In this document: piece by piece, positions 2,486-49,424 of the stretch
How the letters are laid out: each line of letters opens with the position of its first letter
Numbering within the stretch: the stretch's first letter is position 1
Source of the DNA: a virus
Reading direction: 5' to 3' (one strand)
Virus record (IMG/VR): IMGVR_UViG_3300044611_000205
Coordinates: 1-53,022 of that record
DNA length: 53,022 bases
Program-made: the position numbers and the translations under genes
The notes under the pieces: generated by a model
Told to the model about the DNA's origin: nothing
Database searches by the model: none
What the model saw: the letters and a program-made list of their open reading frames with translations, nothing else

Positions 2486-2491
2486 AGTACA

Positions 2492-2497
2492 ATTATA
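2492..2497 (-). promoter_or_regulatory. -10 box giving a leaderless start
   Basis: TATAAT on the minus strand lies 6 bases upstream of the ATG at 2485. Transcription would start at or next to the initiation codon. A possible -35 (TTGAAA at 2517 to 2522) has a long 19-base spacer. No Shine-Dalgarno is present. Confidence 0.5.
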
Positions 2498-2505
2498 TAG
2501 ACTAA

Positions 2506-27666: not shown

Positions 27667-29220
27667 TTATTCTTGTGATCTACCTTCACCCTGCGGACCT
27701 CTTCCAGTAGTCGTAGAGGATGAGTCTGAAGCATTGGCAGTTCTTTCTTGATCCCTCATCCTATTTCCACCAGACTGGGCTATTTGCTCTGCCCTGGCTT
27801 GTGCTCCTAGAACTATTGGATCCATTCCACCTGGCCTTGCTGGATATCCTAATCTTTCTCGAACTTCGTTTGGAACCAATACCTGCATTCTTAAGTATCT
27901 TTCATCTATTTGACTTTGGGTCTGTTCGTCCGTTAAGGTTAACTCATTAAACTTAAAAACAAGGAGATCAGTTTTTTCTTTAATAATCTTGTTAATTGTT
28001 TTTTCTAAGTTTCTTTGTGCTGGTCTAGCAACTTGCTCTTTAAATGTTCTATCTGCAACAAGAGCGGAGGCTATTGATACTCCAGCACCTCCACCAACTT
28101 TTGAATAAGGTACTTGATGTGCCATCAAGACATCATCACGATTTGCTTTTCTATATCTATCAAAAGAACCATCTTGAATACCGTTCTCAATAGGCTCTAA
28201 TTTAAATTCTACCTTGTTGTCTGGTCCATCTCCAGGAAGTGGTATATATAGGGTTCTATGGTTTTGACCTTTAAGTCCCGATTGCATAAATCTAAAAAAC
28301 TTGTCTTCTGCATCAGGGCTTAATTTTGCACCCTTTATTAATGCTAAATATCTTGGGACTGCCTTATTTTCAAAATAGTCAACATTATACTTTGCTGCTA
28401 ATTCGTTTCCTACCATAGAAGTTGCTGAAGCAACTGTGTCTGGAACTCCATAGTATGAATTTTTTGGAGAATATTTCTTTATGTGAACTAGTTCATTAGG
28501 TCTTGAATCACTAGTAACAGGATTAACATTTGTACCTTGAAAATTTCTAAAGTAAACAACTTTTTGATTTACTATCTGTATATACCCGTCACGCATACGA
28601 CGAACACGAATTGTTGTTGCTGGAATATGACCAATGTACCCTATGTCTCCATTAATCTTTCTTCCTATTTCTAGATATCCATTACCAGTTGACTCTACGT
28701 CTGTATAAACCTTTTCTAAAACATGGGTAAATGTGTCTTCGTCATTTAGGCTTTCAAGCCATTCACTTAGTGCTGCCTTTGCTCTTTGAATTTTACGTTG
28801 AGCACGCATTAGTTGTTCATCAGACTCTGCTTCTTCTAATCTGGCAAGAGTTGAGTCTGTCATTTCAAATCCATATCCTAGTCCTACAATGTTTGAAACT
28901 TTTGCAGAAATTGCTGCGTGGTTAGAAAAAGAATTCTCGTAAAAATAAGCCAATTCATCTAGGTTGTACGGAGGAATAACTACATCAAAAAGTCCATATG
29001 CTGTAACCATGTCCATTTCTGGAAATAGTTGTTTTGATCTTGCGTCTTCAACTCCCTGAAATGCTTTATTTAAAGTTCTATTTACTTTTCTTTTAAAATT
29101 ATTTGTTAGTCCATAGTATGACTTAACTATTTCTGCACTAGTAATAAATGGATCATTGCCTTCTTTTTTTTCTACTCTGTCAAGATTGTCTATTCTTGCT
29201 CTTGATTCATTATCTTCCAT
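27667..29220 (-). CDS. Portal protein, HK97-like
   Basis: The DNA-entry ring of the head, 517 residues. Position before the protease and capsid genes, and length, fit. Sequence signs are FYENSFSNHAAISAKVSNIVGLGYGFEM near 91 to 118, TDVESTGNGYLEIGR (wing), NELVHIKKYSPKNSYYGVP (typical portal motif), and the long crown helix near 370 to 450. The C-terminus (NRMRDQERTANASDSSSTT, then QGEGRSQE) is polar and probably flexible. The ATG overlaps the previous gene by 11 bases. An adjacent terminase gene is not found. Confidence 0.93.
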   Translation of the reverse strand: MEDNESRARIDNLDRVEKKEGNDPFITSAEIVKSYYGLTNNFKRKVNRTLNKAFQGVEDARSKQLFPEMDMVTAYGLFDVVIPPYNLDELAYFYENSFSNHAAISAKVSNIVGLGYGFEMTDSTLARLEEAESDEQLMRAQRKIQRAKAALSEWLESLNDEDTFTHVLEKVYTDVESTGNGYLEIGRKINGDIGYIGHIPATTIRVRRMRDGYIQIVNQKVVYFRNFQGTNVNPVTSDSRPNELVHIKKYSPKNSYYGVPDTVASATSMVGNELAAKYNVDYFENKAVPRYLALIKGAKLSPDAEDKFFRFMQSGLKGQNHRTLYIPLPGDGPDNKVEFKLEPIENGIQDGSFDRYRKANRDDVLMAHQVPYSKVGGGAGVSIASALVADRTFKEQVARPAQRNLEKTINKIIKEKTDLLVFKFNELTLTDEQTQSQIDERYLRMQVLVPNEVRERLGYPARPGGMDPIVLGAQARAEQIAQSGGNRMRDQERTANASDSSSTTTGRGPQGEGRSQE

Positions 29221-35640: not shown

Positions 35641-36150
35641 ATGAAGAAAGTATTATTAGCATTAATTGTTTTTATTATTTCAGGAACATACTCAAATTAT
35701 ATAGATAGACATAGTCCAATTTATACCGCCGAACCTTTGGTGGCTGTCCAAGAAGGACAAGCCACCTTTAGTCCTTTAAAAGGGGTTTTAGAGGCTCGTG
35801 AGAGCAATGCTGAGGTTGCTGCTAGGTCTAAGGCTAAATTTAGTGATCCTAGGTCTCAGAAAGCCATATTGGCTTATCAGCATTATATGAAAGAAAATGT
35901 TCCAGCCCAAGAACTCTCATGTTATTTTAATATTGTAGACAAAGAATCAAGATGGAATCCTATTGCACAAAACCCTAAATCAACTGCATTTGGAATTGGT
36001 CAATTTTTAAATAGCACTTGGGGATTGGTCGATAGTAAAAAAACTGAAAATCCATATGCTCAAATTGATGCAATGATAAAATATGTTAATTTAATATATG
36101 GTGATGGATGTCAAGCATGGGACTTTAAAAAACATAAAGGCTGGTATTAA
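35641..36150 (+). CDS. Secreted lytic transglycosylase (SLT domain)
   Basis: Cleaves peptidoglycan glycan strands; probably the phage lysis enzyme. Residues 4 to 17 are a hydrophobic segment after MKK, a signal peptide or signal anchor. Residues about 90 to 169 form the soluble lytic transglycosylase domain: catalytic glutamate in DKESRWNP (E102), then AFGIGQFLNSTWG (116 to 128), and the ending CQAWDFKKHKGWY. The same arrangement is common in actinobacterial cell-wall hydrolases. It runs opposite to nearly all other genes, has its own promoter and AAGGAGG, and converges on the glycosyltransferase with a 4-base overlap. Confidence 0.85.
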   Translation: MKKVLLALIVFIISGTYSNYIDRHSPIYTAEPLVAVQEGQATFSPLKGVLEARESNAEVAARSKAKFSDPRSQKAILAYQHYMKENVPAQELSCYFNIVDKESRWNPIAQNPKSTAFGIGQFLNSTWGLVDSKKTENPYAQIDAMIKYVNLIYGDGCQAWDFKKHKGWY

Positions 36151-37238
36151 AGTTCTTTAATTTGTTTAAAAACCTTATCCCATTCAGGACCTCTTGCTTC
36201 TAATGAATGATATTGTTTTACTAATTGATAATTTTTTTGTCTTTCAATATTTCTAACTTTTTGATTTCTTAATTCTTCTAAATGACCTAACCATTCATCT
36301 TCAGTATTTGCTACTCTACCAATTCCATATTCTTCATATAAAAACTTATACTCTTCTATATTTTCAGATATAAAAGGAATACCAGATGCAGCATATTCTA
36401 ATCCTTTTATAAAAGATTTTGCTCTATTAAATTCAACATGTCTTAATGGAACTAACCCAATATCTATTTTTTTAAATAAATCTTTATAGTCTAATATTGG
36501 TTTCATTGGTTGAGAAGTAAATAGTTTTTCAGGAATTCCCATTTGTTGTTGAACAGTAGGTGCATTTTTAATTGCCCCAGAATGATGAAATCTCCATTTA
36601 TTTTTTTCTAAAAATTTTCCTATAAATGGGTTTAAAGTCTCAAGATCGCCAGAACGCCATAATGTTGCACCAACCCATCCAAGAGTTGGGTGATATCCAG
36701 ATTTATCTTTTCTCATAGAAAAATGTTGCATATCTACTGAATTTCTTACTAAGAATATAGGTTTTCCAGGATACTTATTTTCATAAAATTGTTTTAAGAA
36801 TGGACTAGATACTATCAAAGCATCTGCTAATTCCATACCCTTAAAATAATGATCTCTATTATTCTTAGGGTTAGTAGCAGGATCTGTTGACTTATATGCC
36901 ATATTCGTGACCTCTAAGCCTTCATGAAAATCATCTACATCTATTACTATTTTTTGACCCTTTTCTTTTGCTTCTGGTATATGATTTACAATCTTTTCAA
37001 GCATCATTAATTTTAATACAACTATGTCCCAACCGTGAATTGCTTTTTTGTCTGGAACTAATAATCCAAATTTATAATCTTTATGAAATGCTGGAAAGCC
37101 CATTCCAACTTCCCAACCATGTTTTTTTAATTCTTGCATAGGAAGAAAACATCTATACCAAGCACACCCATTAGGTTGTAAAGGTCTTGTTCCCCAAGAC
37201 CAATCATAAGTTAAAAAAGTAACTGTAGGTTTTGCCAT
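36147..37238 (-). CDS. Glycosyltransferase, GT-B type
   Basis: Transfers a sugar from a nucleotide donor. It has 363 residues. The N-terminal lobe starts TVTFLTYDWSWGTRPLQP, and the donor-binding C-terminal lobe holds LGWVGATLWRSGDLETL, then DIGLVPLRHVEFNRAKSFIKGLEYAASGIPF and its glutamate, the pattern of GT4-type enzymes. Similar genes are frequent in cyanophage and actinophage genomes. The target is unknown: host surface glycans (superinfection exclusion), phage DNA or a virion protein are all possible. It begins after a terminator and lacks a strong Shine-Dalgarno. Confidence 0.82.
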   Translation of the reverse strand: MAKPTVTFLTYDWSWGTRPLQPNGCAWYRCFLPMQELKKHGWEVGMGFPAFHKDYKFGLLVPDKKAIHGWDIVVLKLMMLEKIVNHIPEAKEKGQKIVIDVDDFHEGLEVTNMAYKSTDPATNPKNNRDHYFKGMELADALIVSSPFLKQFYENKYPGKPIFLVRNSVDMQHFSMRKDKSGYHPTLGWVGATLWRSGDLETLNPFIGKFLEKNKWRFHHSGAIKNAPTVQQQMGIPEKLFTSQPMKPILDYKDLFKKIDIGLVPLRHVEFNRAKSFIKGLEYAASGIPFISENIEEYKFLYEEYGIGRVANTEDEWLGHLEELRNQKVRNIERQKNYQLVKQYHSLEARGPEWDKVFKQIKEL

Positions 37239-37562: not shown

Positions 37563-37592
37563 ATTGTACACCCTAAGAACAACCTATGTCAA
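37563..37592 (-). promoter_or_regulatory. Near-consensus promoter of the holin-like gene
   Basis: TTGACA (37587 to 37592, perfect -35) and TACAAT (37563 to 37568), 18 bases apart on the minus strand. It overlaps the end of the oxygenase gene. The core GTGTACAATA is identical to the reductase promoter, suggesting the same sigma factor and timing. Confidence 0.75.
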
Positions 37593-38174
37593 CTGTTTAT
37601 ACCAAAACCCTGGAGACATATATTTTATTCCTTTTGTGACAATCTTAGATTGATGAAAATATGGTGCTACTGAAGGAAATACCGCAATGCTTCCAGCAGA
37701 TGGTTTTATATTGATATTTTGTTGGGGAAAAAATAAATTTCCTCCTTCATAATCATCATTTAGATACAATACTACTGACAATACTGGAGATCTATCATCT
37801 CCATATGAATCAATATGAGGACCCATTTCTTTTCCAGTAGAATACTTACTAATAGATATTGGAGTTAAATATCCTATATCTATATTGTGAAATAAAGAAT
37901 AGTCTTTAGATGCTGTTAAAATTGCATTTTTTATTTTATTATTTATAGATGTTAATTCTTTATTTACCTCATTATCTATTGAAGGATTTATAGATTTTTG
38001 ATATCCAAAATCATAGGAATCATCACTAGCAGTCCATTTTTTCCATTTTGTGATGCTAGTATTTTCATTTAACAAAGAATCAGTTTCTTCTATGTTTTTA
38101 ATAAGTTCATAAGGATCTTCTATAACATTTTCATAAAAATGTATATTTTCATAAGTAGTTAATTTATAATTCAT
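37584..38174 (-). CDS. 2-oxoglutarate/Fe(II) oxygenase, prolyl-4-hydroxylase type (copy 1)
   Basis: Expected to hydroxylate a substrate using O2, 2-oxoglutarate and iron. It is 196 residues long and the catalytic domain fills about 95 to 196. The iron ligands are H120 and D122 (GPHIDSYGD) and H174 (YFHQS); the 2-oxoglutarate lysine is K184 (GIKY). The core VVLYLNDDYEGGNLFFPQ is shared with the other six copies. It is closest to copy 2. An extended -10 (TGATACAAT) lies 9 bases before the ATG. Substrate unknown; proline in a phage protein is one option. Confidence 0.88.
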   Translation of the reverse strand: MNYKLTTYENIHFYENVIEDPYELIKNIEETDSLLNENTSITKWKKWTASDDSYDFGYQKSINPSIDNEVNKELTSINNKIKNAILTASKDYSLFHNIDIGYLTPISISKYSTGKEMGPHIDSYGDDRSPVLSVVLYLNDDYEGGNLFFPQQNINIKPSAGSIAVFPSVAPYFHQSKIVTKGIKYMSPGFWYKQLT

Positions 38175-38183
38175 AATAGTCCA

Positions 38184-38192
38184 ATTGTATCA
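38184..38192 (-). promoter_or_regulatory. Extended -10 box before oxygenase copy 1
   Basis: TGATACAAT on the minus strand, 9 bases upstream of the ATG at 38174, implies an almost leaderless mRNA. It would let copy 1 be expressed apart from copies 2 to 6. Confidence 0.4.
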
Positions 38193-38804
38193 AAACCAGT
38201 ACCCAGTTACTACGTACTTTATTCCAGATCTTATTAGATTTGGTTGATGATAAAATGGCTCTGTAGATGGGTATATTAATATGCTACCAGACAATGGTTT
38301 TATTAATACCTTTTGCTTTCTAAACAACATTTCTCCACCCTCAAAATTGTCATTTAAAAATACAACTACTGAAAATTTTGCAGAGTCTTTTAATCCGTGT
38401 GAGTCTACGTGAGGACCAGTATGTTTTCCTGGATAGCACTTGCTTATTAGTAGATCTTTTAAATTATTTATTGAAACATTGTGTGTATTTGAATAGTGTT
38501 CTGATGATTTTAAAATTAAATCATATAGTTTGTTTTTAACATAGTTAATTTCTTTATTATCACTATTAATATTTTTTATAGTCTTTTCTTCACTAAATTC
38601 GTATGTTGGATAGGTATTAGGCTCTTGGGTTAAATCATGACCTAAGGTACTAGACCAAGACCATTTAGTTACAACATCATTTTCTATAGAATTATTGTCT
38701 TCTATAATATCAATAATTTTTTGTGAATCATTAATTATATTTTTATAATAATGAATTCTTTCATTTTGAACAAGACAATCTTTTATATCTATAATTGATT
38801 CCAT
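38190..38804 (-). CDS. 2-oxoglutarate/Fe(II) oxygenase, prolyl-4-hydroxylase type (copy 2)
   Basis: A paralogue of copy 1, 204 residues. The iron ligands are H132 and D134 (GPHVDSHG) and H186 (FYHQP); the 2-oxoglutarate lysine is K196 (GIKY). The core reads VVVFLNDNFEGGEMLF. N-terminal residues 1 to 115 are helical and diverged, perhaps the substrate-recognition half. It overlaps copy 3 by 16 bases, so the two are coupled. All active-site residues are kept, so it is not a decaying duplicate. Confidence 0.88.
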   Translation of the reverse strand: MESIIDIKDCLVQNERIHYYKNIINDSQKIIDIIEDNNSIENDVVTKWSWSSTLGHDLTQEPNTYPTYEFSEEKTIKNINSDNKEINYVKNKLYDLILKSSEHYSNTHNVSINNLKDLLISKCYPGKHTGPHVDSHGLKDSAKFSVVVFLNDNFEGGEMLFRKQKVLIKPLSGSILIYPSTEPFYHQPNLIRSGIKYVVTGYWF

Positions 38805-39397
38805 ATTAACTCTTCTTCCTCATTAACCTCATAACTTTTAATATCCCACCAAGAAACTATAGTATATCTAGTTTTGCTGTTTACTCTTGAAACTCCATGT
38901 ATATTTTCATGATTTCCTGGAAATGTAACTATTGATCCAGTTTTTGGTTTTATTTCAATACCATGCTGCGTAAAATAAAGATTTCCCCCGTCGTAGTCAT
39001 CATTTAAATATAATATAACAGTATATTTATTTGAACTATTTTCATTCTCATTACCATATAAGTCACTAGTATCAGAATGTGGCTCTACCATTCCACCCAC
39101 ATCCCACTTTTGAGCATGATAAGTAACACCTATAAAGTTTTCATTAAAACTTTCTTCAACAACTTTTTTAAATTTATGATGTAATTGTTGAAAAAAATCT
39201 TTTGATAAGTTAAAAGATTCTAAATTTTTATCATATAAAGATATAGGCATTCCATAGCATTCTGTAAAACTACTATTAAATATAGACCACCTTTCAGATT
39301 GAAAGTCTAAATATTTAATTATGTTTTTACATTCATCTTTAGAGATAAAGTTTTTTACCTCTAAAACATCTTTTTTATGATAAAAATAATCTTTCAC
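38789..39397 (-). CDS. 2-oxoglutarate/Fe(II) oxygenase, prolyl-4-hydroxylase type (copy 3)
   Basis: A 202-residue paralogue, closest to copy 4. Both carry HAQKWDVGG before the iron site and ENIHGVS around the distal histidine. Iron ligands H107 and D109 (EPHSDTSD) and H167; arginine R177 (KTRY) replaces the lysine as 2-oxoglutarate anchor. Core ILYLNDDYDGGNLYF. Starts with GTG, preceded by AGGA. No signal peptide, so it acts in the cytoplasm. Confidence 0.88.
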   Translation of the reverse strand: MKDYFYHKKDVLEVKNFISKDECKNIIKYLDFQSERWSIFNSSFTECYGMPISLYDKNLESFNLSKDFFQQLHHKFKKVVEESFNENFIGVTYHAQKWDVGGMVEPHSDTSDLYGNENENSSNKYTVILYLNDDYDGGNLYFTQHGIEIKPKTGSIVTFPGNHENIHGVSRVNSKTRYTIVSWWDIKSYEVNEEEELIWNQL

Positions 39398-39404
39398 TAT
39401 TTTC

Positions 39405-40088
39405 CTATGCGTATTTATTACCCTTTAGCCATTCTTCTCTTTGTTTTTCTTGTTGTTTTCTAATTTCTGTTTCTTCATCTTTCCATTTTTTAATTGTTTC
39501 TTCATCATATTGAGCATCTGCATAATCCCAGAAAGATACCATAGTATATCTAGTTCCTTTTGTAATTTCAGATACTCCGTGAATATTTTCATGTCCCCCA
39601 GGAAACATTATAAATTGTCCTGCTTGTGGTTTAAATTTAACTCCATGTTTTGGAAAATATAACTCTCCACCTTCATAATCATTATTTAAGTATAAAATTC
39701 CTACGTACTTATTAATTTCAAAAGCATTAGGATTTCCATCATGATCTGAGTTATCTGAGTGTGGTGCAGCAAAACCTCCAACATCCCACTTTTGTGCGTG
39801 TGAGGTATTTGGTTTTAGTTCTCTTTCAAAAAACATTTCACAAGTTTCTTTAAACCTATCTCTAAGATTCTCAAAAAAATTGGGTTCTAAGCCTAGTTTT
39901 TCAAGGGTAGGGTCAGTTGGTGCCAAACCCATGCCAAGAGAGCCGTAGAAGGCTATAGGGCCCCATATACCAGCCTGCTGTTCAAAGTACTTAATCATTG
40001 CCTTTGCCGTATCTTCTGATACAAAGTCATTGGCAGAAGCAATATCATGTTTATAATATTGCAATTCATCTTTTTTATATTTATTCAT
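39405..40088 (-). CDS. 2-oxoglutarate/Fe(II) oxygenase, prolyl-4-hydroxylase type (copy 4)
   Basis: A 227-residue paralogue. Iron ligands H110 and D112 (APHSDNSD) and H170 (ENIHGVS); R180 (GTRY) for 2-oxoglutarate. Core ILYLNNDYEGGELYFPKHG. The C-terminal 35 residues are a charged helix (EEETIKKW, then EKQREEW) absent from the other copies; it may mediate partner binding. It overlaps copy 5 by 8 bases. Confidence 0.88.
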   Translation of the reverse strand: MNKYKKDELQYYKHDIASANDFVSEDTAKAMIKYFEQQAGIWGPIAFYGSLGMGLAPTDPTLEKLGLEPNFFENLRDRFKETCEMFFERELKPNTSHAQKWDVGGFAAPHSDNSDHDGNPNAFEINKYVGILYLNNDYEGGELYFPKHGVKFKPQAGQFIMFPGGHENIHGVSEITKGTRYTMVSFWDYADAQYDEETIKKWKDEETEIRKQQEKQREEWLKGNKYA

Positions 40089-40857
40089 CTTGTCCTCTTT
40101 CTGTTAACTCTTTTTTCATTGCTTCATTGGGAATTTGATAAAATATTCTAATAAAGTATTTTATACCACTAGTTATTTTTTTTACCCCATGAACACAAAC
40201 ATTTTCTTCAGACAATAAATCTGGATGACCTGATGGAAAAACCATTACGTCTCCAGCCTGTGGTTTATATACATAGTCATCTTTGCCTACCCTAAAGGCA
40301 ACGTCCCCACCTTCATAATTGTCATTTATATACATTGTACAAGTTAATGCAAAATCTGGTTGTGCATCATCATATCCAACATAATCTGTATGATATGCCA
40401 TTACAAGACCATTATCTTCTAAATGCTTTTCTTGAACCCCACTAGTCTCGTACTTACAAAATGATGGACCCATAATTGTCCAATCTTTTTTAACCTCAAC
40501 ATTATGATGAGACAAGTAGTGCTTGGTTGTTGCTTGAAATATTTGATTTGTTGCTTCTATAAAAAATTTTTCTTTTAAATATTTAGGGGTTTGATTAAAC
40601 TCATCTTTAGGGCTAAATGTCCACTTTACTACATATGATCCAAATCTAGACCATTGTTCCCAATTTTTAAATAAAAAACTTTTTTCAGGTTTTATTTGTG
40701 ATTCATTTAAAACTGCATTAAAAGTTTTTGTAGCAGGAAATATATTTTTATACAAAAATACTTTAGGAATAATTTCTTCATATTGTAAATTATTTAAATC
40801 TGGAATAATTAAATCTTCAGTTAAATAATTATCATTTTCTACAATATCGTCTATCAT
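40081..40857 (-). CDS. 2-oxoglutarate/Fe(II) oxygenase, prolyl-4-hydroxylase type (copy 5)
   Basis: The longest copy, 258 residues from the start chosen here. The ATG at 40857 overlaps the stop of copy 6 as ATGA and has AGGAG 7 bases upstream. An ATG 10 codons earlier lacks a good ribosome site. Iron ligands H156 and D158 (AYHTDYVGYDD) and H223 (CVHGV); K233 for 2-oxoglutarate (GIKY). Core CTMYINDNYEGGDVAF. The N-terminal half is long and diverged, so it may recognise a different substrate. Confidence 0.85.
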   Translation of the reverse strand: MIDDIVENDNYLTEDLIIPDLNNLQYEEIIPKVFLYKNIFPATKTFNAVLNESQIKPEKSFLFKNWEQWSRFGSYVVKWTFSPKDEFNQTPKYLKEKFFIEATNQIFQATTKHYLSHHNVEVKKDWTIMGPSFCKYETSGVQEKHLEDNGLVMAYHTDYVGYDDAQPDFALTCTMYINDNYEGGDVAFRVGKDDYVYKPQAGDVMVFPSGHPDLLSEENVCVHGVKKITSGIKYFIRIFYQIPNEAMKKELTERGQDE

Positions 40858-41531
40858 TTTTTTTCTCCTAATTCTACAATGGTCCAAAAAAATGGAATAG
40901 TATATCTAATTCCACTAATTATTGGCTTTACACCGTGTAAATAATTTTTATCACCTGGAAAAAAGTATGCTGCTCCAGCCTTAGGTTTAAATTCAATATC
41001 ATGTTGTGGAAAGTATAATTCTCCACCTTCATAATCGTCATTAATGTAAAATAGTCCCGCTAAGTCATAATAAGGAAAGTCATTAGGACCCTCTGCTCCA
41101 TTTTCATGCAATTCTTTATCAGCATGAGGCATTTGTAATTGTCCAGGAAGCCATCTAACCATTGCTGGGTTAGTAGGTATTGCCTTTACATTAAAAAATG
41201 AATCTACTTCTTTTTTAAGTCTATCAACAAGGTTTTGTATTGTTGGAATTACTATGTTTTCAGGATCTTGTTTTAAAATTGTGGGGTAGTTAGCAACTCT
41301 ATCTTTCCAATAATCAGCATCATAGATTATAGTTCCATCTTCATTATAATGTGTTTCACTTTCATCCCATATTGTTATTTTTTTAGCAAAATTAGAAAGA
41401 ATATTCAGTTCTTCTTCTGTCATAAAATTTTCTTTTGCTTGAATCATGTCTGGAGAGTTTCCAAAATAACCTGAAGGGGTTATTGAATATCTGTGAGACT
41501 TATTTACGTTTGAGTATTTTTTTTGTTCCAT
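40854..41531 (-). CDS. 2-oxoglutarate/Fe(II) oxygenase, prolyl-4-hydroxylase type (copy 6)
   Basis: A 225-residue paralogue at the head of the five-gene run. Iron ligands H136 and D138 (MPHADKEL) and H199 (YLHGV); R209 for 2-oxoglutarate (GIRY). Core LFYINDDYEGGELYFPQHD. The extended -10 TGGTAGAAT lies 6 bases before the ATG with no Shine-Dalgarno, so the run of copies 6 to 2 may come from a leaderless mRNA. Confidence 0.88.
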   Translation of the reverse strand: MEQKKYSNVNKSHRYSITPSGYFGNSPDMIQAKENFMTEEELNILSNFAKKITIWDESETHYNEDGTIIYDADYWKDRVANYPTILKQDPENIVIPTIQNLVDRLKKEVDSFFNVKAIPTNPAMVRWLPGQLQMPHADKELHENGAEGPNDFPYYDLAGLFYINDDYEGGELYFPQHDIEFKPKAGAAYFFPGDKNYLHGVKPIISGIRYTIPFFWTIVELGEKK

Positions 41532-41537
41532 ATTTAT

Positions 41538-41546
41538 ATTCTACCA
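41538..41546 (-). promoter_or_regulatory. Extended -10 promoter of the oxygenase run
   Basis: TGGTAGAAT on the minus strand, ending 6 bases before the ATG at 41531. The spacing is the same as at 2485 and 51808, again pointing to a leaderless start. Confidence 0.45.
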
Positions 41547-41552
41547 TCTTCT

Positions 41553-42284
41553 TTATTCATAAGATCTTTTTTCCCATACCTCATTTTTATATACCCCTCC
41601 GTTTGGTATTCTATATTTTAAACTATTTTCATGATTTTTTTTAGGAAGTATCATTGGATTTTCTACCACTATCTCTGACTCCCAATTCTCTCTTTTAAAT
41701 GGTATTACTTGACAAAATGGAGTTCCCTTAGGCAATATTCCAGTCCATCCTTCTCTTAGAAAAAATGGTAAGTTTCCAGATATGTGAACCTTGTCGTTAT
41801 CTATTATCCCAGTGGTATTTATAAATGGCAAATCAAACCTATTGCTTGGAGTTAGATATATTGCACTATATCCTTCAGGTAAAACTATACCCCAATCAAC
41901 TAACCACGAAAAATGGTCCTTATAGTACCCTTCTGGGTGATGAAATTGTGGCATTGGAGATCTAGGAGTACAAAAACTTTGATTTTTTCTATCTTTTGTT
42001 TTACAACTAATTACATTTTGATCGGTTAAATAAAACTCAACATCACATGGAGTTACTAACATATATCCAGTTATCATAATGTCCATAAATGAATGACAGG
42101 CTTTCCATGTAGGAAGTCTACCGTTATCATTTCCTATAAAATAAGTTCCATCTTCATTTTTAAAAAATCTATCACCCTTTGAATACCAATCAGGAATAAA
42201 TCTACCTGCTGGCTGTGGTTTAGAAGCACTATTTTTTCCTAACCAAAATCTATTTGTAACAAAATTTATTTTTTTATTTTCCAC
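41553..42284 (-). CDS. Protein of unknown function in the oxygenase cluster (member 1 of a pair)
   Basis: A 243-residue protein inserted between oxygenase copies 6 and 7. Related in plan to its neighbour: an N-terminal Trp/Lys/His motif (TWKACHSFMDIMITGYML), a hydrophobic beta core, then GTPFCQVIPFKRENW near the end. From memory it resembles DUF6065, a family of unknown role found in phages and bacteria; this needs a search. The pattern of strands suggests a cupin-like fold but no metal site is clear. It overlaps its partner by 11 bases, so they are translated together. Confidence 0.6.
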   Translation of the reverse strand: MENKKINFVTNRFWLGKNSASKPQPAGRFIPDWYSKGDRFFKNEDGTYFIGNDNGRLPTWKACHSFMDIMITGYMLVTPCDVEFYLTDQNVISCKTKDRKNQSFCTPRSPMPQFHHPEGYYKDHFSWLVDWGIVLPEGYSAIYLTPSNRFDLPFINTTGIIDNDKVHISGNLPFFLREGWTGILPKGTPFCQVIPFKRENWESEIVVENPMILPKKNHENSLKYRIPNGGVYKNEVWEKRSYE

Positions 42285-42990
42285 GTTTTTTACTTCTGTT
42301 ATCTGTTATTTTCATTTTTAATTGTTTAACTTCGTGTTTACCAAAAACATTTCCTTCAAAATCTGTTGCGTTTCTGTACCAATCAGTCCATTTATTTTCT
42401 TTTCTAATTTCTTCAAATGCCTTGTTTCTTCTTGAGTTATACTCAGCATCTCTTTCAGTGTATACATAATCTTTTAATTCTAATTCCATATCTTGTAGTT
42501 TACTTAAAGATATAGGTATAAGGGTTGCATATGGCTCTCCTGCTTTTATAACTATGTCTTTATTAAATGATAAAATCCTTATTGCCGATGGGATCTCTTG
42601 ATAATACCAAGAAGTACTTATTAAAGTTGTAAAGGCTTGATAGTCTGGATTAAAAAAGTTTGGTGCTGGTATTTGTAACATAGTTATGTTTTCTGGAGTA
42701 CTAAATGTTATACCAGTCTTTATACTTATTGTTGCATGTCCTCTTGTAGTGTATACATACTTTCTACCACTTAAAACTTCTACATTATCTCCAGATTCAC
42801 TAAATACACCATTCCATCTAAATTTTAAGTCTACTGGCAAAGATAGTTGATATCCTATAGTATTTCCTAGTTGAAGGGGAAAACATCTATAAGCATGCTG
42901 TTGCCAGGTTTCGTCCATCCAGTCACGTCTTAAAGAAGTGGGTTCAATATTTATAGCATTTCTATTACAAAATGCTTCTATCTTTGTCAA
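42274..42990 (-). CDS. Protein of unknown function in the oxygenase cluster (member 2 of a pair)
   Basis: A 238-residue relative of the next gene. Shared landmarks in order: CFPLQLGNTIGYQLSLPVDL (about 36 to 55), ending of a core with PAPNFFNPDYQAFTTLIST, and a near-terminal GEPYATLIPISL matching the partner's GTPFCQVIPF. The C-terminal 40 residues are basic (MKITDNRSKKRGK). Placed directly after oxygenase copy 7 with a 2-base gap. Function unknown; as a pair with the oxygenases it may bind the same substrate. Confidence 0.6.
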   Translation of the reverse strand: MTKIEAFCNRNAINIEPTSLRRDWMDETWQQHAYRCFPLQLGNTIGYQLSLPVDLKFRWNGVFSESGDNVEVLSGRKYVYTTRGHATISIKTGITFSTPENITMLQIPAPNFFNPDYQAFTTLISTSWYYQEIPSAIRILSFNKDIVIKAGEPYATLIPISLSKLQDMELELKDYVYTERDAEYNSRRNKAFEEIRKENKWTDWYRNATDFEGNVFGKHEVKQLKMKITDNRSKKRGK

Positions 42991-42992
42991 TA

Positions 42993-43667
42993 TTAATCTC
43001 CACTTTCACTATAAAATTTCTTAGTATGATACTTAGAACTATAATCAAGCATAGTTACAAGAGAATACTTTATTCCCGAGGTTACTTTTTCAGCAACATG
43101 TGGATACATAAAATTAGAAGGAAAAATATAAAGGTCTCCTGCTTTAGGCTTTATCTTTAGCCCTTGAAGTCTAAAAGACAACTCCCCACCTTCGTAGTTA
43201 TCATTTAAATACCCCACTAATGAAACTGTACAGTTGTATGAATAGCCATGGTCATGGTGCTCCATAAAATGTTGTCCTTCTCCATATCTAATAAAATTAA
43301 AGGCTTCCCAATATCTTAATTCTGCTATATTAAACATAGATCTATAATTTTCTACTGCAGAAAACTTTCTATCATAACATTGTTGCCATATACTTGCTAA
43401 TTCGTTGTACTCTTTACTTCCATCTGGAACAAGATCACTTTTTTTATATTTAAAATCAACACAATCACGGTAATCTTTCATTACCTGGTTATATCCAACT
43501 TTTGCTTGAATCCAATTAAAATGCTTACTATCTTTTCCCAAAACATCCTCTAGTCTGTTTACGATATTTAAAGATTCTGGGAACACATCTCTATATACAA
43601 AAATTCCAGGTCCACATTCTTCCATGCTTGACCAGGATTTTTCTATTACTTCTTCTCTTTCTACCAT
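42993..43667 (-). CDS. 2-oxoglutarate/Fe(II) oxygenase, prolyl-4-hydroxylase type (copy 7)
   Basis: A 224-residue paralogue, first of the modification block. Iron ligands H137 and D139 (MEHHDHGY) and H190 (YPHVAEK); K200 for 2-oxoglutarate (GIKY). Core LVGYLNDNYEGGELSF, then KIKPKAGDLYIFPS. The N-terminal half (to about 120) is unlike the others. It lies 36 bases from the Hint-domain gene at 43704, the nearest of the seven to the Pro-rich substrates suggested below. Shine-Dalgarno AAGAAGGGC. Confidence 0.88.
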   Translation of the reverse strand: MVEREEVIEKSWSSMEECGPGIFVYRDVFPESLNIVNRLEDVLGKDSKHFNWIQAKVGYNQVMKDYRDCVDFKYKKSDLVPDGSKEYNELASIWQQCYDRKFSAVENYRSMFNIAELRYWEAFNFIRYGEGQHFMEHHDHGYSYNCTVSLVGYLNDNYEGGELSFRLQGLKIKPKAGDLYIFPSNFMYPHVAEKVTSGIKYSLVTMLDYSSKYHTKKFYSESGD

Positions 43668-43692
43668 TTGTTGCCCTTCTTTTGTTATCTAT

Positions 43693-43720
43693 AGTATATC
43701 AAATTATTTGTTATGCACAA
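43693..43720 (-). promoter_or_regulatory. Promoter of oxygenase copy 7 and following genes
   Basis: TTGTGC (43715 to 43720) and TATACT (43693 to 43698), 16 bases apart on the minus strand, at the very end of the Hint gene. Moderately good match. Confidence 0.45.
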
Positions 43721-44534
43721 GTATGCCGCCAGCCAAAAATAGGTCTGTGTCTTCGACGGTAATTGCAAATGTTAAACTAGGTTCATCATCTTCATTTATA
43801 GTTATAACTTCAACTGGTATAAATTCTTTTTTATCAAAGTCATACTTCATATAATAGTCTCCTATGTTTATTTGAGATGAATATACATACTGCCAATCTT
43901 GATCTTTTGGCTTTATAAATATTAATTGTTCAAGAGACATTCTACTAGATTCATCATTATTTAAATACATAGTATGTTTAATTATTGGAAAAGAACTTAC
44001 AACTTTTGTATCTATAATTTTTATATTTTTTATATTTGTAGATTCATTATAATCTATTCCCCAAACCCTATCTCCAACTACCAAATCTTCTGCTTTTTTA
44101 TAAACTACTAAATCATTTTCTTGAACACAAGAGATCAATGTTTGAGAATGTATGCATCCATAAAAAGATGGTGGGAAAAATGGTGGAAAGAATGGTGGAA
44201 AGAAAGGTGGAAAAAAGGGTGGAGCAATAGCAGTTATTGGATTGCTTGCAGAAGAAGGTGGTGAAGTAGACACTGTATTATTTAAAGTAACCGTAAATGT
44301 ATAAGTTGTTCCTGGAACTAAATTACTTACAGTTATAGGAGAAGTTGCAGATGTTCCAGTCAATCCTCCAGGATTTGAAGTTGCAGTATAAGTTGTACCA
44401 GTTGGTTTTCCAAGAAAAGATGGTGGAGTAAAAGATATTGTTGCTTGATATGGAGCACTATTAACAGCAGTTCCAATAGTTGGGGCTCCTGGTTGCCTGC
44501 CTCCAGAAGAATTAGCAGTAATCAAGAGCCCCAT
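43704..44534 (-). CDS. Fibronectin-III / PPFF-repeat / Hint domain protein B
   Basis: A 276-residue protein. Residues about 17 to 103 are a fibronectin III-like domain (beta strands, TYTFTVTLNN). Residues 105 to 122 are PPFF repeats. C127 to the end is a Hint (intein-like) domain: first cysteine in YGCIHSQTLI, KAEDLVVGDRVWGID as the early conserved block, and the final block AITVEDTDLFLAGG ending HNK (274 to 276). In inteins the Asn of the terminal HN cyclises; here only a Lys follows, as in bacterial intein-like (BIL) domains. The usual TxxH block reads SLEQ (200 to 203). It may therefore be a self-cleaving or self-attaching virion protein, or a non-catalytic Hint fold. Confidence 0.75.
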   Translation of the reverse strand: MGLLITANSSGGRQPGAPTIGTAVNSAPYQATISFTPPSFLGKPTGTTYTATSNPGGLTGTSATSPITVSNLVPGTTYTFTVTLNNTVSTSPPSSASNPITAIAPPFFPPFFPPFFPPFFPPSFYGCIHSQTLISCVQENDLVVYKKAEDLVVGDRVWGIDYNESTNIKNIKIIDTKVVSSFPIIKHTMYLNNDESSRMSLEQLIFIKPKDQDWQYVYSSQINIGDYYMKYDFDKKEFIPVEVITINEDDEPSLTFAITVEDTDLFLAGGILVHNK

Positions 44535-44545
44535 AGTAACCTACT

Positions 44546-45442
44546 TTATTTGTTGTGAGAAAGGATGCCGCCAGCAATAAATAGATCAGCGTCTTCTACT
44601 GTTATAGCAAATGTTAGTCTAGTATTTTCTTCTTCTGTATGAATAGAACTAATTTCTACAATTTCAAAAGAATCATTTTCAGAACTATAATTTACTAAAG
44701 AATCGCCTTCTGATAATTGTGATGTATATAAATAACCCCATTTATTATCTGTTTTTGCAAGAACTAATTGTTCTAAAGACATTCTTGTAGATTCGTCATT
44801 GTTAAAATATAAAGTATGTTTCATCAATGGGAAAGAAGATACAACATGTGTTTTAATTTTTGACATGTTTGCAAACATTTCTTGCTCTTCGTCTTCAATT
44901 GAATCAAAACCTTCATAGTCATATTTTGAATAAGTTGAAGCCCAGACTTCATCTCCTACTACCAAGTCTTCTGCTTTCTTATAAGTAACAGAATCTTCTT
45001 CTCCAACAACTGCAATTAGAGTTTGAGAGTCAATGCATCCATAAAACCCTGGTGGGAAAAATGGACCGAATCCTGGTGGGAAAAACGGTGGGAAAAACGG
45101 TGGAAAGAATGGTGGGAAAAATGGTGGAGCAACAGCAGTAACAGCGTTACTTGAGCCAGATTTTGGACCATACCCTACAGCGTTTGTTAAGTCAACTTGA
45201 AATGTATAGGATGTACCTGCGGTTAGTCCAGTGATTGTTATTGGAGAACTTCCACCTGTAGCGGTTACACCACCTGGTGTTGATGTTACTCTATATGTAG
45301 TACCTGTTGGTTTTCCTAAGTGTGATGGTGCTGTAAATGAAACTGTAGCCGAATTTGCACCTGGCAAAGTGGCTGTTCCTATTGTTGGAGCACTTGGCAG
45401 TTTACCGCCAGAAGATGCTTCAACTCCTTGATTTATTGGCAT
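44546..45442 (-). CDS. Fibronectin-III / PPFF-repeat / Hint domain protein A
   Basis: A 298-residue paralogue of the next gene. Fibronectin III-like domain about 17 to 104. Residues 106 to 133 are a longer Pro/Phe stretch with two extra Gly-Phe units. Hint domain from C136 (YGCIDSQTLI) to HNK (296 to 298), with SLEQ at 222 to 225 in place of TxxH. A 20-residue acidic insertion (about 176 to 192) distinguishes it. Same order of domains and the same ending GGIL-S/V-HNK, so both come from a duplication and both keep the Cys and Asn. The AGGAGGGCG Shine-Dalgarno and TATAAT box upstream suggest strong expression. Confidence 0.75.
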   Translation of the reverse strand: MPINQGVEASSGGKLPSAPTIGTATLPGANSATVSFTAPSHLGKPTGTTYRVTSTPGGVTATGGSSPITITGLTAGTSYTFQVDLTNAVGYGPKSGSSNAVTAVAPPFFPPFFPPFFPPFFPPGFGPFFPPGFYGCIDSQTLIAVVGEEDSVTYKKAEDLVVGDEVWASTYSKYDYEGFDSIEDEEQEMFANMSKIKTHVVSSFPLMKHTLYFNNDESTRMSLEQLVLAKTDNKWGYLYTSQLSEGDSLVNYSSENDSFEIVEISSIHTEEENTRLTFAITVEDADLFIAGGILSHNK

Positions 45443-45472: not shown

Positions 45473-46456
45473 CTAAGATATTAAGTCTCCGAATGCAATC
45501 CATGAGTTTGCTGCTCTTTTTATTAAAGAGGCCGAAGACCATTGTGCTCTTAGTTTTAAGCCTGGAGTTCCATTTAATGAAACACCAGAACCTGGTGTTA
45601 ATGTTGTTTGACCAACACTAGTTTGCACAACTACTATTTGAGATCCTATTGGAAAGTTAGTAGTAGAATCTGGTGGAACTGTCAAAGTGTTTGCAGTTGC
45701 TACTCCCATTTCTACCATCTTTCCAACATCCGACAATATTAAAACATATGATGATGTTTTTTGATTTGAAGGAATTCTTATATCACTTACTCCAGTAACA
45801 GTTATATTTTCTGTATCTAAAGATCCTACTTTAAATGGATCATAGTTTACAGAAGAAAAATCAACAACAGTGGATACAGAAGCACTTAATCCAGAAAATA
45901 ATTTCCAAGTACCATCTGAAGCATCTTTTGCTAGTCCAGTATACTTTGTAGTTCCATCATTATAAGTTCCAACTAAACCAATGTCTACCACATTAGATGA
46001 ATTATTTGTTGCTAAAAATATTATTGGATCAGTTACTGAAAGGTTTTCTGTATTTACAAACTCTGTTGATCCAGAAACAACTAAGTTTCCACCAACTTCT
46101 AAATTACCCAAGATTACAGCAGATGCGTTTACGGTTAAATTGTTAGGGACGGTAACATCGTCAGAAAGACTTATCGTTACATTTCCAACTGAAGCAGATA
46201 CATTTATTTGATTTGGAGTTCCCCCAAGTGTTACTTGTTGTATTCCTTCTATCGCTTCTAATCTTCCATCTAAGTCTAGAAAATGACTATGGACACTATT
46301 ATTTGCAGGAGATTCAGAACCAGTATAGTTATCTAAACCATAATGATAAAGTTTAAAAGCCTCAACAATATTTGCTTGATCACTTAAAGATGGTATTTTA
46401 GTGTCAAACTCAGTTTCTTGATAACCAGAGGCATCGCTAATTAATTGGCCAGCCAT
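45473..46456 (-). CDS. Tail fibre protein with shared C-terminal domain
   Basis: A 327-residue fibre protein. N-terminus (TEFDTKIPSLSDQANIVEAF) is likely the tail-attachment end. The middle is beta-helix-like (LGNLEVGGNLVVSGSTEFVN). The last about 85 residues (VGKMVEMGVATANTLTVP, ending AANSWIAFGDL) recur in the fibres at 46506 and 48072 and form a shared tip or trimerisation domain. Genes before and after are also fibres. Shine-Dalgarno AAAGGTG. Confidence 0.7.
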   Translation of the reverse strand: MAGQLISDASGYQETEFDTKIPSLSDQANIVEAFKLYHYGLDNYTGSESPANNSVHSHFLDLDGRLEAIEGIQQVTLGGTPNQINVSASVGNVTISLSDDVTVPNNLTVNASAVILGNLEVGGNLVVSGSTEFVNTENLSVTDPIIFLATNNSSNVVDIGLVGTYNDGTTKYTGLAKDASDGTWKLFSGLSASVSTVVDFSSVNYDPFKVGSLDTENITVTGVSDIRIPSNQKTSSYVLILSDVGKMVEMGVATANTLTVPPDSTTNFPIGSQIVVVQTSVGQTTLTPGSGVSLNGTPGLKLRAQWSSASLIKRAANSWIAFGDLIS

Positions 46457-46505
46457 TTATTTCACCTTTCTAAATTATACCATGTGTATTTTTTTATAGT
46501 TATCA

Positions 46506-47621
46506 TTATGTTCCTAAGTCTCCTACTAAAAGCCAGTCATTAGTTCCAACTTTAGTTAAAGAAGCAGCAGAATATTGTGCTCTTAAATTAGCACTAGGAG
46601 TAGCATAAATATTAACTCCAGCACTTCCAGCAATTGAAGTTTGTCCAGTTCCAAATTGAACTACGTCTATTTTTGTGCCTATACTAAATGCAACAATATC
46701 ATTATTTGGAACAGTCAATGTGTTACTATAAGAAACATTCATCTTTATTAAAGTTTCTTGATCTGACAGTTGAACAGTGTATGGCTCTGTTTTCTCAGTA
46801 ATTGTTATTTTTTTAGAAGAATAAGATGTTGAAGCATTTGCTTGAGTAAGATAAGTAGAGGACGCATTTGCCTGAGTAAGATAAGTAGAGGACGCATTTG
46901 CCTGAGTAAGATAGGTAGACGTTGCATTTGCTTGAGTAAGATAGGTAGACGTTGCATTTGTTTGAGTTAAATAAGAAGAAGAAGCACTTGATTGAGTAAG
47001 ATAAGTAGAGGATGCGTTTGCCTGAGTTAGATATGTAGAAGATGCGGAGCCCTGTGTCAAATATACACTTGCTATTGTAGTTGCTAAGTTAGGGTCATTT
47101 CCTAGTGCTGATGCTAATTCAGTTAAAGTGTTTAAAGTTGATGGTGCAGCCCCAACAAGATTTGCTACTGCAGAGTCTGTATAAGAAGCAGCCGTAGCAG
47201 ATGCTGAAGAAAGCAATTGAACAGATGAACTATTTGGTATATAGTTTGTAGAAGCAGAAAAAGCAGCCTGCTCTGCTAGTTCATAATAATAAATAGCACT
47301 TGCAGATTCAATTTGTGCTTCCAATAATAGTTCTGATGATTCTTCAATGCCAGGATTAAAATTTACAATTACTTGCCACTGATCTCCACCAGGTACAGAA
47401 AAATATTGATACAAAGTATTGTTAGAAGTTCTTAAAAACAAATCACCAATTTTTTGTGGATTATTTTGAAACAATAAAGGATTGCTATTGGGATCTACAG
47501 ATCCAGAGTATATATAACTTCCTCTTTCTCCAGTTGCACCAATATCCAATCCTATTTCTATAACATCTGGGGGACCAAATACTGTGATAGACTCTGTTTG
47601 AACTATAGAGTTTATAGCCAT
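46506..47621 (-). CDS. Tail fibre protein with ten-residue repeats
   Basis: A 371-residue fibre. N-terminus (ESITVFGPPDVIEIGLDIG) resembles the attachment domains of T4-like fibre proteins. Residues about 190 to 265 are eight tandem TYLTQANASS decapeptides (consensus), a beta or coiled-coil shaft. The last 85 residues are the domain shared with 45473 and 48072 (NTLTVPNNDIVAFSIGTKI, then LLVGDLGT). Repeats favour copy-number change, which is a means to alter shaft length. Confidence 0.75.
   Translation of the reverse strand: MAINSIVQTESITVFGPPDVIEIGLDIGATGERGSYIYSGSVDPNSNPLLFQNNPQKIGDLFLRTSNNTLYQYFSVPGGDQWQVIVNFNPGIEESSELLLEAQIESASAIYYYELAEQAAFSASTNYIPNSSSVQLLSSASATAASYTDSAVANLVGAAPSTLNTLTELASALGNDPNLATTIASVYLTQGSASSTYLTQANASSTYLTQSSASSSYLTQTNATSTYLTQANATSTYLTQANASSTYLTQANASSTYLTQANASTSYSSKKITITEKTEPYTVQLSDQETLIKMNVSYSNTLTVPNNDIVAFSIGTKIDVVQFGTGQTSIAGSAGVNIYATPSANLRAQYSAASLTKVGTNDWLLVGDLGT
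46825..47070 (-). repeat. 30-bp tandem repeats (TYLTQANASS) in the fibre gene
   Basis: About eight imperfect copies of a 30-base unit encoding the decapeptide T-Y-L-T-Q-A-N-A-S-S and variants (SYLTQTNATS, TYLTQSSASS). Confidence 0.85.
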
Positions 47622-47971
47622 TAACTAGTCCTACCACTTATATCTTGTGTAACATTTATTGTTCCAGTTAATAAAGTATATTTAGTGCTGGAACTAGTAT
47701 TTTCAATTTGAATATCATATACATATGAATTGTTTTCTAATATATCCCCTAGTGTTGTAGGAATTGTACATATTAAACTTGTAGAAGCATTTGTTATTCC
47801 ACCAAGACCTACGAATACCCCAGCCTCTCCTCTTTCAGTAGCAACTGTAAATAAAGTTGAGTCATAAGTTCCAGTATTAAAAATTTCCCCATTAGAATTT
47901 TTGGGGTAAATAATAAATTCGTAAGAATCTCCACGATAATAGTTAAAATTGTATGTAGCAGGAAATGCCAT
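47621..47971 (-). CDS. Fibre-associated Ig-like protein
   Basis: A 116-residue, beta-rich protein beginning YNFNYYRGDSYEFIIYPK, similar in style to the small Ig-like proteins that attach fibres to baseplates in other phages. Stop and start of the neighbour overlap by one base. A Shine-Dalgarno AGGTGAT precedes the ATG, and a TGATATAAT box lies 16 bases upstream. Confidence 0.55.
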   Translation of the reverse strand: MAFPATYNFNYYRGDSYEFIIYPKNSNGEIFNTGTYDSTLFTVATERGEAGVFVGLGGITNASTSLICTIPTTLGDILENNSYVYDIQIENTSSSTKYTLLTGTINVTQDISGRTS

Positions 47972-47987
47972 TTATATCACCTACTTT

Positions 47988-47996
47988 ATTATATCA
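47988..47996 (-). promoter_or_regulatory. Extended -10 box before the fibre block
   Basis: TGATATAAT on the minus strand, 16 bases before the ATG at 47971 and just after the terminator at 48021. It restarts transcription for the next fibre genes. Confidence 0.45.
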
Positions 47997-48020
47997 GAAT
48001 ATAGACTATTTGTTTGAAAA

Positions 48021-48058
48021 TGAAAAACTTGCCGATATTATACATACCGACAAGTTTA
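48021..48058 (-). terminator. Rho-independent terminator after the 450-residue fibre gene
   Basis: AACTTG with CAAGTT (48026 to 48031 and 48051 to 48056) starts a 13-bp stem with two G-T pairs, and TTTTT follows on the minus strand. Confidence 0.8.
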
Positions 48059-48071
48059 TCAATGTTGTAAA

Positions 48072-49424
48072 CTAGGCTGAAAGGTCACCTATTGCAACCC
48101 AAACGTTTGTTGAACGTTTGATAATTGTTGCAGATGCCCATTGTGCTCTTAGTTTTAAACCAGGTGTAGCGTTAATTGTTACACCAAGTGCTGGAGTCAA
48201 GGTAACTTGTCCAGCACCAGTTTGTAGAATTGTAATTTCAGTTCCAACTGGGTAAGCAACAGTATCATTATTTGGTACTGTCAAGGTGTTTCCACCTGCT
48301 ACTGACATTTCTACAATCTTATCAGCGTCTCCCAATACTAGTACATAAGATGCTACTCGAGCATTAAATGAATTTAACTTATCTTTTTTAACTGACAAGT
48401 TAATTCCAGTTAATCCAGAACCATCTCCAACAAATGCTGAAGCAGATACTGTTCCAGTAACGCTTGCAGAGCCAAGAGTGATTGCATCATAGTTTGCACT
48501 TGAGAAATCAACCTCGTTAGTTGTAGGATGTGGGAAGTTACTTGCTAATTTCCATGTATTTGCAGAGTTATCATATACTAAACCTCTGTGTAAATGGCTT
48601 TCGCCAGTATTTACACCTTCACCGTATGCGGTTGTAAATCCACTGTCTAAAGCATCTGTTTCAGTATTATTTTGAGCCAAGTAGATTAGTGGGTCGTCAA
48701 CCAATAGGTTTTCTGTATTTAGGTATGCTACCGAACCAGAGAATGTTACATCTGATGTAAAATCTACTGGACCAGTTACAGTTCCACCAGCAACTGGTAG
48801 ATAGTCTAAAGCAGCGGCTGATTGAGTTAGGTATGTTGCAGATCCTGAATCAATAGCACGTTGACTTGTAAAGTATAAATTAGTTCCTTCTGCAACGTTT
48901 GTTGTTACGATTGATCCAATTTCTGAATCTGTGTAACCATTAGCAGAAGTTACTGCAGCACCAGAAGCAGTTGCTATGGTGCCTATTAGTGAAGATTCTA
49001 GAGTGTTAATTTCTCCATCAGTGTAAGAATTTGCTGCTGTTTGGGCTCCAACTGAAGCGGTATTTATTAGTCCGCTTAAAGTAGATCCAAGTTCACCAAA
49101 TGAACTATCTGTGTATAGAAGTAAATTTGTACTTGCTGTTGTTAAATTAGTTCCAATTGTTGTAGCAAAATTTGCGTCATCACCAATTGCTGCTGCTAAT
49201 TCATTTAAAGTATTTAGCAATCCTGGTGCTGAATCTACAAGGTTTGTAACTGCTGTATCAATGTAGGCTTGTGTTACACCATCTGATACTAAAGCCCACT
49301 CAGAGCCATCCCATCTATAAATCTTATTATTGTCCGTATCAATCCATAAGTCTGTTTCTTTTGGATCTAACGGAGTTGTTGGACCAACAATTATTGGTCT
49401 TCTTTTATTACTTGTTAATGCCAT
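48072..49424 (-). CDS. Tail fibre protein with hairpin-controlled start
   Basis: A 450-residue fibre. The N-terminus (PIIVGPTTPLDPKETDLWID, then YRWDGSEWALVSDG) is a WD-like attachment module common in cyanophage fibres. Residues 60 to 220 are alternating helix/beta repeats with a YTDSE motif also present in the last gene of the window. Residues 365 to 450 are the C-terminal domain shared with the genes at 45473 and 46506 (LKLRAQWASATIIKRSTN). The strong Shine-Dalgarno lies 36 bases from the ATG, and an RNA hairpin fills that gap. Confidence 0.75.
   Translation of the reverse strand: MALTSNKRRPIIVGPTTPLDPKETDLWIDTDNNKIYRWDGSEWALVSDGVTQAYIDTAVTNLVDSAPGLLNTLNELAAAIGDDANFATTIGTNLTTASTNLLLYTDSSFGELGSTLSGLINTASVGAQTAANSYTDGEINTLESSLIGTIATASGAAVTSANGYTDSEIGSIVTTNVAEGTNLYFTSQRAIDSGSATYLTQSAAALDYLPVAGGTVTGPVDFTSDVTFSGSVAYLNTENLLVDDPLIYLAQNNTETDALDSGFTTAYGEGVNTGESHLHRGLVYDNSANTWKLASNFPHPTTNEVDFSSANYDAITLGSASVTGTVSASAFVGDGSGLTGINLSVKKDKLNSFNARVASYVLVLGDADKIVEMSVAGGNTLTVPNNDTVAYPVGTEITILQTGAGQVTLTPALGVTINATPGLKLRAQWASATIIKRSTNVWVAIGDLSA

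Follow-up and report, generated by a model that had tools for sequence, protein, structure and literature searches.

The DNA analysed here, IMG/VR record IMGVR_UViG_3300044611_000205, is one whole virus record of 53,022 bases (the window), and it carries on its minus strand, from position 45442 to 37584, a cassette of eleven genes in which two genes for proteins with a PPFF-repeat linker stand beside seven genes for 2-oxoglutarate (2OG)-Fe(II) oxygenases and two for proteins of the DUF6065 type. The gene content of such loci, the direction of their arrangement, the specificity of the association and the joint absence of both partners from close relatives make it very likely that the oxygenases and the proteins bearing this repeat (in general form PPxF) are functionally linked. 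We consider it probable that the cassette serves to mature tail fibres, some or all of its oxygenases hydroxylating the PPxF repeat, most likely on its prolines. More broadly, the balance tips slightly in favour of a widespread, previously undescribed post-translational system in uncultured bacteriophages, in which dedicated sets of 2OG oxygenases, partnered by DUF6065 proteins, would mature PPxF-repeat tail polymers by hydroxylation.

Association of oxygenase genes with the PPFF repeat

Viral contigs were gathered solely on the strength of PPFF, as a DNA pattern or through protein similarity, and never by their oxygenases. A 2OG oxygenase was found in 150 of the 193 PPFF loci, within the short stretch retrieved, and 47 of 50 PPFF-selected whole IMG/VR records (24–156 kb, the PPFF pattern being confirmed in all 50) carry such enzymes, mostly in 5–15 copies. 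Random control records, of roughly 20 kb upwards and drawn from the same collection by an arbitrary 15-mer, contained 2OG oxygenases in 3 of 33 cases, with one or two matches each (Fisher p 7e-16 for PPFF versus random records), and PPFF was found in none of 104 random loci (0.92 Mb). A second control, made up of records with collagen-like (GPT)n repeats, gave oxygenases in 4 of 39 (one of the four, L241, had already come up in the oxygenase sample) and PPFF in none of the 39. Since the (GPT)n records lie at background, the link is specific to PPFF and not to repeat-rich fibres generally, and the idea that any proline-containing repeat fibre might be the partner of the oxygenases was rejected. 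An earlier note on this DNA, made from its sequence alone, had proposed the link between oxygenases and PPFF linkers, and had reckoned that it would fall if PPFF-Hint genes commonly occurred without an oxygenase; when this was checked, each of the 11 PPFF-Hint records within the 50 had oxygenases, as against some 9–10% of the control records, and the link stands. The converse association is weaker: among 28 records selected by a 2OG motif PPFF occurs in just 10, one of them by a single match, and the 2OG superfamily clearly has other uses too. In two loci (L241:1-1338 and L234:2-1192) collagen-like fibre genes lie beside rows of 2OG and DUF6065 genes without PPFF, and may represent a second class of substrate.

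The arrangement of the two partners is also directional. Same-strand 2OG genes start within 3 kb downstream of 85 of the 105 non-redundant PPFF genes that have at least 3 kb of downstream sequence, whereas an oxygenase lies within 3 kb upstream of only 1 of the 83 with 3 kb of upstream sequence, so that PPFF genes head the oxygenase rows. Tight spacing was seen for 33 of the 105 PPFF genes compared with 43 of 616 other open reading frames, a within-locus control that uses mechanically called reading frames and is supportive only. When the PPFF proteins were divided by their build, the link held for 12 of 14 with both Fn3 and Hint domains, for 57 of 63 with Fn3 and without Hint, and, more weakly, for 13 of 23 with neither. 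The pairing of the oxygenases with Hint proteins specifically, as put forward in the earlier note, is rejected, because a Hint domain is fused in a minority of PPFF loci (36 of 190) and proteins lacking it show the link just as strongly. The feature that the linked proteins share, across differing N- and C-terminal domains, is the PPxF repeat.

Organisation of the cassette

The eleven genes (Table 1) lie on one strand with gaps of at most 36 bp or short overlaps, in the order two Fn3-(PPFF)n-Hint proteins, oxyA, two DUF6065-type proteins, and oxyB to oxyG; the arrangement can be read as operon-like on this account, and the genes may be co-transcribed. In a fragment from a second phage (L001) the cassette genes occur in identical order with about 76% protein identity, so that their arrangement is not a matter of chance. 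Pfam matches and the catalytic triad confirm the two PPFF-run proteins and the seven oxygenases beside them that had been noticed at the outset; the two DUF6065-type genes within the cassette were absent from that description.

Table 1. Genes of the cassette and their immediate neighbours in the window
Feature	Coordinates	Strand	Basis
Hint1: Fn3, (PPFF)4...PFFPP linker and C-terminal Hint domain ending HNK	44546..45442	-	Pfam, AlphaFold2 model
Hint2: paralogue of Hint1, 61% identical, layout alike	43704..44534	-	Pfam
oxyA: 2OG-Fe(II) oxygenase adjoining the PPFF genes	42993..43667	-	PF13640 E 4e-14, triad; strongly PPFF-biased part of tree
DUF6065 protein, predicted dUTPase-like fold	42274..42990	-	PF19541 E 5e-26; AlphaFold2 mean pLDDT 83
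Second DUF6065-type protein	41553..42284	-	phrog_7084 match; no Pfam match
oxyB: 2OG-Fe(II) oxygenase	40854..41531	-	PF13640, triad
oxyC: 2OG-Fe(II) oxygenase	40081..40887	-	PF13640, triad
oxyD: 2OG-Fe(II) oxygenase	39405..40088	-	PF13640, triad
oxyE: 2OG-Fe(II) oxygenase	38789..39397	-	PF13640, triad
oxyF: 2OG-Fe(II) oxygenase	38190..38804	-	PF13640, triad
oxyG: 2OG-Fe(II) oxygenase, last gene of cassette	37584..38174	-	PF13640, triad
Glycosyltransferase, adjoining the cassette but outside it	36147..37238	-	phrog_7162; kept in relatives without PPFF and oxygenases
Tail-fibre-like genes 45473, 46506, 47621 and 48072, upstream of cassette	45473..49424	-	PHROG: tail/minor tail for three of four

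The oxygenases and the DUF6065-type proteins

All seven oxygenases match PF13640 (2OG-FeII_Oxy_3) with E values from 5e-7 to 9e-15, each above the curated cut-off of 27 bits, and six of the seven match PHROG 61. The HxD...H...(K/R) motif is kept in every one: in an alignment of the seven with their seven L001 counterparts H137, D139 and H190 (oxyA numbering) are invariant, and the 2-oxoglutarate-holding K/R, just before an invariant Tyr, is present in 14 of 14. Compared as a profile with solved structures, the enzymes resemble human prolyl 3-hydroxylase 1 first, followed by bacterial prolyl 4-hydroxylases and PiuC-type hydroxylases. In a quick tree with long branches and just 22 non-PPFF rows, PPFF-linked and other oxygenases are separated beyond chance (13 changes, where shuffling gives a mean of 20.4 and none of 500 shuffles is as low), and the starred sets holding oxyA or oxyB contain 26 PPFF-linked sequences to 1 other and 20 to 1.

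Of 190 PPFF loci, 113 hold genes of the DUF6065 type, in every case together with a 2OG oxygenase. When the model of the DUF6065 protein was compared with known structures (Foldseek and VIA-align), the top matches were all dUTPases, with Z about 10. No paper mentioning the family was found in the open-licence full-text literature. These proteins, with their predicted dUTPase-like fold, would be accessory parts of the cassette.

The PPxF-repeat proteins

Hint1 and Hint2 each comprise an Fn3 domain (PF00041, E 1e-8 and 1e-6, respectively), the stretch APPFFPPFFPPFFPPFFPP and a C-terminal Hint domain. Codons differ from one PPFF unit to the next (CCA, CCC, CCT or CCG for proline, TTT or TTC for phenylalanine) while the protein repeat is kept, so that it is the protein sequence that is conserved, and a repeat artefact at the DNA level was rejected as the source of the runs. 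In the PPXF unit, compared across 173 PPFF genes, PP and the closing F are constant and X varies, being F in 69%, Y in 14%, S in 5%, H in 4% and G in 2%; this constancy suggests that proline is the likeliest target. The cassette repeat is PPxF, and the Gly-X-Y pattern of collagen is absent from it. In the AlphaFold2 model of Hint1 a confident Fn3 domain and a confident Hint fold flank a low-confidence PPFF stretch (residues 115–132, predicted local distance difference test score, pLDDT, below 50), consistent with a disordered linker.

The nearest folds to the Hint1 model found by Foldseek are the bacterial intein-like (BIL) domain BIL2 (6y75), DnaB inteins and the hedgehog autoprocessing domain. 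The nucleophile at Hint position 1 is Cys136, a Cys kept in 36 of the 39 homologues in which that end is present. Where block B would read TxxH the window proteins have SLEQ, with Gln in place of His, and some homologues keep TETH. As for the C-terminal end of a splicing intein, His-Asn is present and is followed by just Lys and the stop codon, with no real C-extein; the final His-Asn is found in 18 of the 37 homologues with that end present. A conserved Cys and an often lost His-Asn seem to fit N-side thioester cleavage or transfer better than splicing, the block-B Gln notwithstanding, and covalent attachment through the Hint domain, with its conserved first Cys, is possible. Many PPFF proteins of differing build end in Lys, as ...PPxFK or ...HNK followed by the stop codon (43704 and 44546 in the window; L004, L066, L109, L165 and others). 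Some PPFF proteins (L127:10818-11534, L128:6834-7538, and in L050 and L123) end, as judged by eye, in an S74-type-chaperone-like domain with an SDERDK... start, which suggests that the PPFF stalk is joined to several kinds of end domain.

Close relatives of the window phage

Relatives were gathered by a portal protein 73–86% identical to that of the window. A shared neighbourhood of glycosyltransferase, transglycosylase, ribonucleotide reductase, a 1189-amino-acid protein and the portal was found both with and without the cassette. Among the 21 relatives of at least 20 kb, four have PPFF together with 6–7 oxygenases and 17 are PPFF-negative. In three of the latter (G011, G014 and G016) oxygenases lie at or near the contig edge, so that a PPFF gene could lie past the end of the contig. 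Seven of the other 14 cover the relevant region, as judged from contig ranges, and oxygenases are absent from all seven; fibre or tip proteins were inspected in five of these, and contain 2–4% proline and no PPFF.

Proposed function and alternative explanations

The cassette would thus encode small fibre or tip proteins, each with an Fn3 head, a PPxF stalk and a variable end domain, here Hint. The seven prolyl-hydroxylase-like oxygenases would act on the fibre proteins inside the cell during infection, ahead of virion assembly. Some or all of them would hydroxylate the PPxF repeat, most likely on proline, and so change how stiff and how soluble this very hydrophobic stalk is. The Hint domain might use a thioester at Cys136 to release or transfer a part of the fibre, an additional feature that the oxygenase link does not need.

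Several considerations weigh against this proposal. Three PPFF records (G024, G050 and G058) have no 2OG oxygenase at all; at 31–38 kb they are possibly fragments, and the other records may likewise be incomplete. In the other direction, 18 of the 28 2OG-motif records lack PPFF, and many phage 2OG oxygenases occur without it. The comparison among portal relatives rests on few independent cases, since its four PPFF-positive records are near-copies of one phage, and Fisher tests within this lineage overstate independence on that account and because just seven PPFF-negative records cover the region. Hydroxylation itself is inferred, as are its substrate, residue, timing and physical effect. Seven enzymes are more than one short repeat should need, so that most of them may have other substrates; and a shared host or the exchange of modules could yield the co-occurrence without any relation of enzyme to substrate.

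It is conceivable, if unlikely, that PPFF fibres and oxygenases form a travelling host-range module in which the enzymes modify some other target, such as glycans or peptides on the host surface, a small molecule, or fibre proteins of another kind. The cassette is swapped whole among close relatives, 2OG/DUF6065 arrays also stand beside collagen-like fibres in L241 and L234, and enzymes named from their sequences as sulfotransferase-like and glutathione-peroxidase-like lie near some loci, all of which would suit such a module; however, collagen-like fibre records as a class have oxygenases at background frequency, and the tight downstream placement of the oxygenases, together with a link that spans differing terminal domains, points to the repeat itself. 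If the repeat is the substrate, the modified residue might instead be Phe, Tyr or His. The X of PPXF is for the most part one of these three residues, and in other proteins His, Asn, Asp and Arg are known targets of 2OG oxygenases, but we find this alternative doubtful, as the profile likeness is to prolyl hydroxylases first, and X can also be S or G while PP is constant.

A role as general auxiliary metabolic or DNA-repair genes, with the adjacency to fibre genes incidental, has a precedent in the role proposed for cyanophage copies beside uvsX, uvsY and uvsW (PMC9146016); given the frequencies in PPFF and random records, the downstream-only position and the lack of repair genes in the cassette block, it is very improbable here. 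Slighter still is the chance that the enzyme encoded at 36147 glycosylates linker hydroxyproline, an extension made in the earlier note. The glycosyltransferase gene is indeed close by, and its identification holds, but an enzyme 68–74% identical occupies the matching place in relatives with neither PPFF nor oxygenases, and the 28 commonest families of PPFF neighbours included none recognised as a glycosyltransferase. Being present in both PPFF-positive and PPFF-negative relatives, the enzyme was rejected as a member of the cassette and is excluded from the proposed system.

Comparison with known systems

Hydroxylation of PPxF fibres would have a partial counterpart in chlorovirus PBCV-1, whose virus-encoded prolyl 4-hydroxylase, described by Eriksson et al. 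in 1999 (cited in PMC9301287), was reportedly proposed to act on a proline-rich viral protein. The cassette enzymes have in common with prolyl 4- and 3-hydroxylases, that of PBCV-1 included, the 2OG-Fe(II) fold class and the catalytic triad; they differ in that phage cassettes hold 5–15 divergent enzymes arranged operon-like with a tail protein, in that PPxF is not collagen-like, and in that their activity is predicted. They resemble the PHROG 61 oxygenases of cyanophages in family and in the conserved catalytic His, whereas the cyanophage copies have no assigned substrate and the PPFF-linked ones fall in label-clustered branches and occur with DUF6065. The Hint domains resemble BIL and hedgehog domains in fold and in the first Cys, and differ from them in being C-terminal without a real C-extein, in the altered block B and in the loss of the terminal His-Asn from many homologues. 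Phage collagen-like fibres likewise have a proline-containing repeat in tail fibre proteins, but cassette proteins are without Gly-X-Y, and (GPT)n records have oxygenases at background frequency.

In the excerpts consulted, the use of viral prolyl 4-hydroxylase is called cryptic (PMC9301287), a DNA-repair role is guessed for cyanophage 2OG copies, of which one cyanophage has nine (PMC9146016), and PHROG 61 is described as structurally like human EGLN3 (PMC12774648); these excerpts name no fibre substrate for phage 2OG enzymes. No paper linking phage 2OG oxygenases to PPFF-type repeats was found in the open-licence full-text literature. Such oxygenases occur in many aquatic phages, where their role is puzzling, and the directional PPxF link offers a testable substrate. 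If the proposal is correct, phages hydroxylate their own tail fibres, PPxF joins the hydroxylated structural polymers as a new kind with no relation to collagen or extensin, and phage 2OG oxygenases have in the repeat their first substrate class to be identified.

Distribution, host and neighbouring genes

A cultured-phage collection searched with Hint1, Hint2, another PPFF protein and DUF6065 gave no significant match, although the low-complexity filter of BLAST may hide repeats; for the oxygenases, cultured phages gave distant 2OG matches only, including cyanophages. Long PPxF arrays occur at just four loci in 84,980 bacterial and archaeal genomes, three of them with 2OG genes in the stretch examined, while short chance PPxF matches in bacterial contigs were accompanied by 2OG in 0 of 22 cases. 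The portal protein (27667-29220) shares about 54% identity with those of Streptomyces phages, its nearest cultured relatives, which hints at an actinobacterial host; despite this likeness the G+C content of the window is about 33%.

Among the tail-fibre-like genes upstream of the cassette, 47621 corresponds to phrog_1084, to which PHROG assigns no function. Near PPFF/2OG rows, sulfotransferase-like genes, judged from sequence motifs, were seen in 17 loci (for example L277:468-1172 and 2431-3198, and L059:2903-3682), and glutathione-peroxidase-like genes, likewise judged from sequence, in 24.

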